NCBI GenBank assembly: GCA_021793405.1
Contig: JAJYSV010000026.1
Coordinates: 1-52,484, forward strand
Source of the DNA: Acidobacteriota bacterium
GTDB lineage: Bacteria; Acidobacteriota; Terriglobia; Terriglobales; Acidobacteriaceae
Reading direction: 5' to 3'
Length of the DNA stretch: 52,484 bases
Each line of letters opens with the position of its first letter. Position 1 is the first letter of the stretch. Made by a program: the position numbers and the translations under genes. Of this stretch, positions 872-1,984 are shown piece by piece. The notes beneath the pieces were generated by a model. The model was not told the DNA's origin. It saw nothing but the letters and a program-made list of their open reading frames with translations, and made no database searches.

Positions 872-1984
872 ATGCAACCTATGCGATATGGCGACATCAT
901 CGGGCAAGAGGATGTAGTAGCTCGATTGAAGGGATTCGGGGAGTTCTATGCTTCCAAACACAGCACGCCTGGACACATTTTGTTCACCGGTGAAGATGGG
1001 ATGGGGAAAGAGACCATCACCAAAATTTTCGCGAACGAAATGGGCGTTGGATTCCAGAAGGTGGATGCTTCTGAGCTGAAGATTATCGGAGACTTGAGCG
1101 CACTTGTTACAAACCTAAAAAAGTGCCAAGTTTTATTGCTCTCGAATCTTCAATTGCTTAGACAATCTCTCGCTAACCGACTGCGCGGTGTTTACGATTA
1201 CAGATACGACATCATCATCGGACAGGGACCAGCGCAGCGCACTCATGTCATGGATCTTCACCCATTCACTTTGATCGCCACCTGCCCCAAGAAGGCCGAT
1301 TGTCCACAAGAATTGTTGAGCGAGTTTTCCTTGGCCTTGAGCTTCCAGCCGTATACCAGGCCCCAGCTCCAGGCAATTGCGGACAGCATCGCCAACCAAG
1401 TTGGAGTCTCGCTGGAACGCGGGGCTGCTGAGCTAATCACTCAAAACTGTGATCGGCCAGGTGCTATCGATATCGTGTTTCGGCGACTCGTGCGGGCCAT
1501 CAATAAATCCGTCATCACAATCGAGGATGTGTCGCAGGCATTCCTTGTATTCGGGATCAACGTGCGTCCAGGCGCCGCACCAACAAATGATGTTAGCAAT
1601 CTCCAGCATTTATCAGGACAGGAGTTCGAGCGACTGATTGCAGTCTTGCTCTCTCGAATGGGATTTCAAGCCGAAATGACAAAAACCTCTGGAGATGGCG
1701 GAATCGACATTATCGCCATGCTCGATAAGCCTATCTTCGGGGGACGCTATTTGTTCCAATGCAAACGATTCACACCCGATGCCCTTGTTGGAGCGCCCCT
1801 TGTGAGGGATTTCTATGGGGCGGTCAGAGCTGACAACGCCATGAAAGGCATCTTCATCACGACGTCGGATTTCACTATGCAGGCACGAGAATTTGGGGAA
1901 AGGGTTGGTTTGGAATTGATCAACTCCGTACAGCTTCAAAAGCTGTTCCTCGAATACGGAATGCTCGAATTAGAAAACGGGTAA
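872..1984 (+). CDS. RuvB-like AAA domain fused to an Mrr-type nuclease domain
   Basis: A 370-residue two-domain protein. Residues 1 to about 230 follow RuvB closely: MRYGDIIGQEDVV, a Walker A region at 40-48 (GEDGMGKET), the GDLSALVTNL stretch, the YRYDIIIGQGPAQRT segment, and the small helical domain with its terminal helix. Several catalytic positions differ from RuvB as I remember it: the Walker A residue after Lys is Glu47, the Walker B acidic pair is Ser91-Asn92, the RSRF arginine finger is LSEF (149-152), and the sensor-2 Arg is Gly197. Residues about 247-365 match the Mrr/PD-(D/E)xK restriction fold: GQEFE, DGGID with Asp279, and QCKR with Gln296 and Lys298. An AAGGGA ribosome site precedes the ATG. 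It looks like an intact DNA nuclease carried on a degenerate ATPase, possibly a defence gene. The gene looks more AT-rich than its neighbours and stands alone. Confidence 0.8.
   Translation: MQPMRYGDIIGQEDVVARLKGFGEFYASKHSTPGHILFTGEDGMGKETITKIFANEMGVGFQKVDASELKIIGDLSALVTNLKKCQVLLLSNLQLLRQSLANRLRGVYDYRYDIIIGQGPAQRTHVMDLHPFTLIATCPKKADCPQELLSEFSLALSFQPYTRPQLQAIADSIANQVGVSLERGAAELITQNCDRPGAIDIVFRRLVRAINKSVITIEDVSQAFLVFGINVRPGAAPTNDVSNLQHLSGQEFERLIAVLLSRMGFQAEMTKTSGDGGIDIIAMLDKPIFGGRYLFQCKRFTPDALVGAPLVRDFYGAVRADNAMKGIFITTSDFTMQAREFGERVGLELINSVQLQKLFLEYGMLELENG

Follow-up and report, generated by a model that had tools for sequence, protein, structure and literature searches.

An Mrr-type nuclease joined to a degenerate RuvB-like AAA+ part that retains the putative RuvA-docking surface in the Acidobacteriaceae

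We confirmed that an AAA+ part resembling RuvB is joined to an Mrr-type nuclease domain in a single open reading frame of an Acidobacteriota bacterium of the family Acidobacteriaceae. The gene lies near the beginning of a 52,484-nucleotide stretch of DNA, which was analysed as a whole and is called the window here (positions 1 to 52,484 of contig JAJYSV010000026.1, assembly GCA_021793405.1). In this protein and its relatives the residues of the ATPase motor are changed, the nuclease residues are kept, and the best-kept stretches of the RuvB-like part are those that correspond to the surface on which RuvB is bound by RuvA. We propose, with about an even chance of being right as judged from the sequences, that the fusion is a pseudo-RuvB nuclease adaptor, which docks on RuvA and would bring the Mrr nuclease to Holliday junctions or reversed forks.

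Results

A RuvB-like part and an Mrr-type nuclease domain in one protein

The features of the gene are collected in Table 1. In the window protein the Pfam profiles RuvB_N and Mrr_cat scored 89.4 bits (cut-off 27) and 102.4 bits (gathering cut-off 21), respectively, and no Pfam match to RuvB_C or to the RuvB lid was obtained up to E = 1. The NCBIfam models of RuvB align to about residue 220, and both score below their cut-offs (110.8 versus 282 bits and 104.8 versus 299.05 bits). The fusion is not a RuvB, as it lacks defining features of that protein; its nuclease is an ordinary Mrr_cat domain, and the novelty is in the combination. No published description of a RuvB-Mrr fusion was found by title and opening of the abstract, with subscription papers and bioRxiv outside the scope of this search.

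Table 1. Features of the RuvB-like/Mrr fusion gene, with positions in the window
Feature	Position	Strand	Evidence
RuvB-like/Mrr fusion gene, complete	872..1984	+	ORF, 370 aa and stop
RuvB-like AAA+ large domain, residues 2-154	875..1333	+	Pfam RuvB_N 2.8e-25; AlphaFold2 model and Foldseek
Degenerate Walker A GEDGMGKET, residues 40-48	989..1015	+	Alignment of copies
Helix alpha3 GDLSALVTNL, residues 73-82, half of the docking surface for RuvA domain III, kept	1088..1117	+	Alignment; model helix 72-80; interface according to the available part of PMC9477746
Lost Walker B LLSNLQ, residues 89-94	1136..1153	+	Alignment of copies
Presensor-1 beta-hairpin YDIIIGQGPAQRTHVMDL, residues 112-129	1205..1258	+	Alignments; model strands 111-116 and 123-128
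Family-specific loop TCPKKADCPQELLSEF, residues 137-152, replacing sensor 1 and arginine finger	1280..1327	+	This loop or one close to it in 6 of the 7 copies aligned
Lid-like helical part, residues 155-228, sensor-2 Arg changed to G197	1334..1555	+	Alignment, model
Mrr-type nuclease domain, residues 245-358	1604..1945	+	Pfam Mrr_cat 2e-29; better-modelled half of the full-length model
Nuclease active site DGGID, residues 275-279	1694..1708	+	Identical in 7 aligned copies and the G615 piece
Nuclease active site QCKR, residues 296-299	1757..1768	+	Identical in 7 aligned copies and the G615 and G565 pieces

An earlier sequence-only reading of the window had assigned the N-terminal part to RuvB. 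This homology was upheld by profile, tree and fold, and the alternative, that the N-terminal part does not belong to RuvB, was checked and not borne out. Residues 1-243 were modelled by AlphaFold2 from 27 alignment rows with a mean pLDDT of 91.8 and a pTM of 0.85, and the 46 best of the 50 PDB fold matches listed by Foldseek for this model were RuvB. The TM score was 0.89 for 9dx3_B and 0.86 for 1ixs_B, a RuvB chain that was solved together with RuvA domain III. RuvB also accounted for 18 of the 27 PDB sequence matches of the window protein, these being the top ones, and the separate RuvB encoded in the same genome is 39% identical to the fusion over residues 2-205. The mean pLDDT of the full-length model was 58.7, and since this model is reliable in the nuclease part only, we claim no arrangement of the two domains. 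The residues that had been named in the reading (K46-E47, S91-N92, E151 in LSEF, G197, D279, Q296 and K298) were all found to be as described.

The claim that the Mrr active-site residues are kept also held, Asp279, Gln296 and Lys298 lying in motifs that the window shares with the other aligned copies, DGGID and QCKR; in the remnant of G565 the first motif is changed to DSGID. In PADLOC-DB 2.0.0 the best matches were PDC-S02 and type IV methyl-directed enzymes, all on the nuclease domain, and a weak match to VakA was located on the P-loop (residues 36-62, E 0.006). No known defence system in that database matched the whole protein. The nuclease has a weak sequence resemblance to MspJI (E 0.55), and MspJI and AspBHI were matched with low TM scores in the fold search with the full-length model, which can be relied on for the nuclease only. 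No RuvB-like N-terminal part was visible in the Mrr-type relatives examined at 11 loci. From its residues, the fusion is likely to have nuclease activity. The viral contigs L217-L219 carry, in ORF 1087-1854, proteins of 256 aa. Their nuclease domain and the Mrr part of the window share 53% identity, and their N-terminal half, of about 138 aa, is a different one.

Loss of the ATPase motor in the fusion copies

The motor residues were compared in seven rows, namely the six full copies and the first open piece of G615; the copy of G447, which runs into a contig end, was not counted, and the remnant of G565 was left out. Walker B is changed in all seven rows, with E-D for D-E in G653 and G615 and E-R in G483. 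The Walker A lysine is kept in five rows and lost in G483 and G666, and the residue that follows it is Glu47 in the window and the normal serine in G466, where Lys-Ser is preserved. Sensor 1 is absent in all six rows that cover that stretch, and at the arginine-finger position four of the full copies have E, one has S and one V, so that all six have lost the finger. The sensor-2 arginine, replaced by Gly197 in the window, survives in G483 and G664. No row has the trans-acting Glu-Asp pair intact (its Asp is kept in the window and G466). The loss of the motor was thus borne out, and the lost residues are not uniform over the family. Because the loss is uneven with respect to the Walker A lysine, the Lys-Ser of G466 and the sensor-2 arginine of G483 and G664, nucleotide binding could conceivably have persisted in some members.

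The arginine next to Walker B forms part of a second DNA contact in RuvB, according to the available part of PMC10272136. The residue that we assigned as its counterpart is kept in G653 only and lost in five of the six full copies. Where RuvB has sensor 1 and the arginine finger, six of the seven copies have the loop TCPxKx(D/E)CPxxLLxEF or a near form of it. The gain of this loop and its sharing among these copies argue for a new function, not decay. The loop contains two cysteines, six residues apart, in five of the seven fusion copies. Decay of the motor private to the window was tested and ruled out, since the motor of its relatives is lost too: the available sequence of eight related genomes, with the G447 copy cut and the G565 copy without its RuvB part, holds no intact motor.

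Retention of the RuvA-docking surface

RuvA domain III (D3) binds alpha3 and the presensor-1 hairpin of RuvB, as stated in the available part of PMC9477746, and the hairpin of E. coli RuvB is given as L135-L152 in that of PMC2628435. By alignment to a PDB RuvB, this hairpin maps to residues 112-129 of the window protein. In the AlphaFold2 model, the helix at 72-80 is the third long helix, which we assigned to the alpha3 of these papers by its place in the fold, and strands are found at 111-116 and 123-128.

Columns that are at least 90% conserved in 49 RuvBs of the family were scored in the seven fusion rows. In the docking set, consisting of alpha3 and the hairpin, 115 of 155 conserved columns were kept; for the ATPase set the figure was 46 of 180, and for the remaining conserved columns it was 281 of 849. 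The Mann-Whitney p values, which are descriptive because the columns are few and phylogenetically linked by common history, were 6e-6 for the docking versus the ATPase set, 2e-6 for the docking set versus the rest and 0.27 for the ATPase set versus the rest. From the last value, the motor residues were lost at the background pace, and the retention of the docking surface is what stands out. Since the docking class had been defined after the alignment was inspected, a class-free test was performed with segments of 12 residues, each with at least six conserved columns, along the RuvB part of the six full copies. Of all these segments, those with the highest retention were the hairpin (0.78) and alpha3 (0.76).

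The hairpin of the window agrees with that of the RuvB from its own genome at 16 of 18 positions. At the position of E. coli I148, His is found in 49/49 RuvBs of the family and in 6/6 fusions; at that of I150, Met is found in 48/49 and 5/6, respectively. Eight RuvBs of cellular type from viral contigs (four of them near-copies; among the best 80 of at least 352 loci) have V or I at the I148 position in seven cases and Met at the I150 position in none. The hairpin loop is altered to GQGSRT in G653 and to GQGSRR in G615. The partial copy of G447 is without the hairpin motif and without the Cys loop in the part present, and the three frames read contained no hairpin motif.

RuvA was matched in all nine genomes with the fusion or its remains, eight times above the cut-off; the RuvA of G653 is partial and scored below it (41 bits). 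RuvB was matched in nine of nine and RuvC in eight of nine. The idea that the fusion replaces RuvC was ruled out by this presence of RuvC, the ninth genome, G615, being rated 72% complete.

Opposite retention in phage RuvBs

The RuvB-type loci of viral contigs that were analysed are the best 80 of at least 352 found, and the counts in this section refer to these. Walker A was omitted from the contrast between the viral RuvBs and the fusions because the search pattern contained it. For counting, the 72 phage proteins among the 80 loci were reduced to 60 distinct ones. These retained the ATPase set at 917 of 1080 columns and the docking set at 195 of 1380, and the figure for all other columns was 2865 of 7800. 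On the other hand, the six full fusions kept, in the same columns, 18 of 108, 101 of 138 and 251 of 780, respectively. The eight cellular-like viral RuvBs kept 111 of 184 docking columns and 134 of 144 ATPase-set columns.

Most proteins of the phage group L144-L215 have Walker B, sensor 1, the arginine finger and sensor 2 and are without the alpha3/hairpin sequence; a few, such as L144, are intermediate. Six of the 72 were chosen by hand for a Pfam scan, and RuvB_N, lid and RuvB_C were present in each of them. The PHROGs label was "clamp loader" for three of three phage RuvBs scanned. The group may consist of RuvB motors that are independent of RuvA. The opposite retention in the fusions and the phage RuvBs suggests that either docking or the motor can be lost without the other, and that the docking sequence is not required for the fold.

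The sequence-only reading had regarded the RuvB-like part as a scaffold that binds either DNA structures or RuvA. The RuvA half of this claim gained strong, though indirect, support from the kept docking columns, the class-free segments and the phage RuvBs as a reverse control; the other half was weakened, RuvB_C not having been found and the arginine adjacent to Walker B being lost in most full copies. Taken on these alignments, the fusion probably binds RuvA.

Distribution, origin and maintenance

With the nuclease part as a query, 56 of 398 genomes drawn from the family of the window were matched at E 1e-12. Nine of them matched at 57% identity or more and the other listed matches at 48% or less, and these nine genomes contain the fusion or its remains. 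With the full-length query against 397 genomes of the order, the same nine were recovered together with two RuvB-only matches. Six copies are full-length, the five relatives being identical to the window by 67% (G466), 55% (G483), 52% (G664), 52% (G653) and 43% (G666). The copy of G447 is cut at a contig end, that of G615 is split into separate frames, and that of G565 is a nuclease remnant without the RuvB part. A scan of genome contigs with six short peptide patterns gave one relative, L032 from an Acidobacteria MAG, which was taken as the record of G483. The homologue search and the alignment with RuvB thus showed that relatives share the two-domain architecture.

Among 396 genomes of the phylum, about 350 of them outside the family, no fusion was found outside the family at E 1e-30 in a draw where scoring was limited to five first-look candidates for many of the genomes; besides the window, only RuvB-only matches from the family were obtained. 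None of the 72,556 plasmid records and 50,697 phage records searched contained 80% of the protein, and viral contigs searched with two peptide patterns gave no relative of the fusion. A home on phages, plasmids or viral contigs was therefore rejected, as none of these searches gave a full-length relative.

In a tree of 32 rows, from which G447 and G565 are absent, the seven fusion rows formed one clade with support of 100/100 among the RuvBs of the family. The stem of this clade is 5.8 changes per column, with long-branch warnings, and because of this long stem the exact place of the fusion in the RuvB tree is unsure. It probably descends from a RuvB of the family, as far as the tree indicates. 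Between the six full copies, dN was 0.18-0.33 for the Mrr part and 0.26-0.87 for the RuvB part, and that of the Mrr part was the lower in 15 of 15 pairs. In most of the comparisons made for the two domains of these copies dS was not computable, or it was above 2. The restrained dN together with the very high dS argues against neutral decay. At the same time, the gene is missing from most of the family genomes searched and one copy within the genus has decayed, so that the fusion is dispensable.

Genomic neighbourhood

The site upstream of etfB is variable within the genus (787-2061 of the window; L124, L125, L128 and L131 in G447, G565, G577 and G527, respectively). It holds the fusion in the window, directly a KDPG aldolase gene in G447, a ParD-type antitoxin gene in G577, unnamed ORFs in G527, and a broken nuclease remnant behind a different gene in G565. 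Here, the genes that we take to be KDPG aldolase and etfB were named from their sequences without a profile. An ORF beside the remnant of G565 is a distant match (28%) of an ORF about 12 kb from the fusion of G653.

No conserved operon was seen when the ORFs in the first 15 kb of the window were compared with 4.8-19.5 kb around eight relatives. Besides the distant match between G565 and G653 given above, the neighbours shared between genera are ParB and an ArdC-type protein, which G664 and G666 have in common. Those of G666 include an SRAP gene, ParB, DUF6908, the ArdC-type gene and a set that was named ImuA/ImuB/DnaE2-like from its Pfam domains; G664 has ParB and an ArdC-type gene, the latter recognised by similarity to that of G666. 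EF-G neighbours the copy of G447, a neighbour in G483 is MutS2 (recognised from its sequence without a profile), and other neighbours are mostly ordinary or unnamed genes. In G653 and G615, which belong to one genus, an unnamed ORF of about 180-200 aa lies directly upstream of the fusion (L057:1723-2325, minus strand; L058:3582-4109, plus strand). The two ORFs are 82% identical and apparently form one operon with the fusion; neither had a Pfam match, and the L057 copy had no PADLOC match.

A perfect inverted repeat, TTCTGGTT-C-AACCAGAA, lies at 841-857, just before the start codon of the window's gene, and is possibly an operator or a hairpin at the ribosome site. By eye, no such repeat was found in common with six relatives, and regulation shared across the relatives was rejected on this ground. 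A scan for promoters and terminators gave nothing above chance. The varied neighbours fit a role as accessory cargo, partly on mobile islands.

Discussion

Most likely, a RuvB of the same bacterial family was duplicated and gave rise to the fusion. In the mechanism that we propose, this RuvB would have lost the ATPase motor, the catalytic residues acting between subunits and the C-terminal DNA-binding domain, the last of which would have been replaced by an Mrr-type nuclease, and it would have retained the composite surface of alpha3 and the presensor-1 beta-hairpin for docking on RuvA domain III. RuvA tetramers on a Holliday junction or a reversed fork could then catch several fusion copies through their flexible domain III arms, for which the fusion would compete with RuvB. 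The Mrr domains gathered in this way on the DNA arms beside the junction might cut there. Cutting at RuvA-bound junctions is a guess to which we give somewhat less than an even chance, and a role as an accessory defence or anti-mobile-element gene is a more tentative guess again. The patchy presence, the variable etfB site and the ParB and ArdC-type neighbours in two genomes fit such accessory or defence cargo without proving it.

The fusion shares the AAA+ and lid fold with RuvB, as well as alpha3 and the hairpin, but differs from it in Walker B, sensor 1, the arginine finger and the trans-acting Glu-Asp pair, and in having a nuclease where RuvB has RuvB_C. The proposed logic, and the logic only, is that of the RuvABC resolvasome, in which junction-bound RuvA recruits a partner and a nuclease cuts; here, however, the nuclease would be of Mrr type instead of RuvC and tethered to a dead RuvB. 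The D..QxK site is common to the fusion and the Mrr_cat and type IV restriction nucleases (Mrr and MspJI relatives), whereas the pseudo-RuvB N-terminal part is not. ZorD of Zorya, labelled in PADLOC as an SWI2/SNF2 helicase with an Mrr-like nuclease, is similar in that a member of a nucleic-acid motor family is fused to such a nuclease. Its helicase belongs to a superfamily other than that of RuvB; the PADLOC match to ZorD (2e-12) covers residues 233-362 only, and no Zorya partner genes were present among the neighbours scanned.

Other explanations need to be weighed against RuvA-directed nuclease recruitment. The fusion could act as a guard or trap. RuvB would outcompete it for RuvA in a healthy cell; were a phage or plasmid to remove or block RuvB, or to fill the cell with branched DNA, the fusion would capture RuvA and make cuts, acting as an alarm nuclease. 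A docking surface kept beside a dead motor would suit this, as would the accessory presence in 9 of 398 genomes with the site empty in G447 and occupied by a decayed remnant in G565, the ParB and ArdC-type neighbours common to G664 and G666, and the ParD-type antitoxin at the same site in G577. However, many neighbours are ordinary or unnamed genes, and the PADLOC matches are confined to the nuclease domain except for the weak VakA match on the P-loop; we regard this explanation as unlikely, but the strongest of those set out here. The same docking evidence would also serve for an antagonist that occupies RuvA domain III and so restrains RuvAB, with the nuclease being secondary. The identity of the nuclease residues in the seven aligned copies and the lower dN of the Mrr part in every pair make this very improbable.

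A subunit that joins the RuvB hexamer, and stalls the motor or rides along with its nuclease, would be in accordance with the model, which preserves the AAA+ and lid fold, and with the presence of RuvB in all nine genomes, but the arginine finger is lost in all six full copies, the trans-acting pair is intact in none, and RuvB_C was not found, so we consider it improbable. We give an equally small chance to a modification-dependent restriction enzyme of Mrr type, whose RuvB-like part would be no more than a scaffold for sensing DNA or its modification, and in which RuvA would have no part. The best PADLOC matches of the fusion, to PDC-S02 and to type IV methyl-directed enzymes, both within the nuclease domain, and the weak resemblance to MspJI (sequence and fold) and AspBHI (fold) are as such an enzyme would have them; nevertheless, this leaves unexplained that the RuvA surface is the best-kept RuvB-like stretch, and the known DNA-binding elements of RuvB are missing. 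Least probable by far is a decaying pseudogene of a RuvB-nuclease fusion. The lost motor motifs and the broken copies in G565 and G615 are what decay would leave, but six frames are open over their full length, five of them from relatives 43-67% identical to the window, dN is restrained at very high dS, and the nuclease residues are kept.

Returning to the pseudo-RuvB adaptor docked on RuvA, its function could tentatively be described as that of a RuvA-dependent junction nuclease that hijacks the Holliday-junction platform, perhaps as an alarm for RuvB being off RuvA, a description that we consider less likely than not. If the docking is true, a nuclease of restriction type would read DNA structure through a recombination protein of the host, and not sequence or methylation. 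The fusions and the phage RuvBs may together represent a natural separation of the two jobs of RuvB, in which the fusions kept the docking and lost the motor, and the phage proteins did the reverse.
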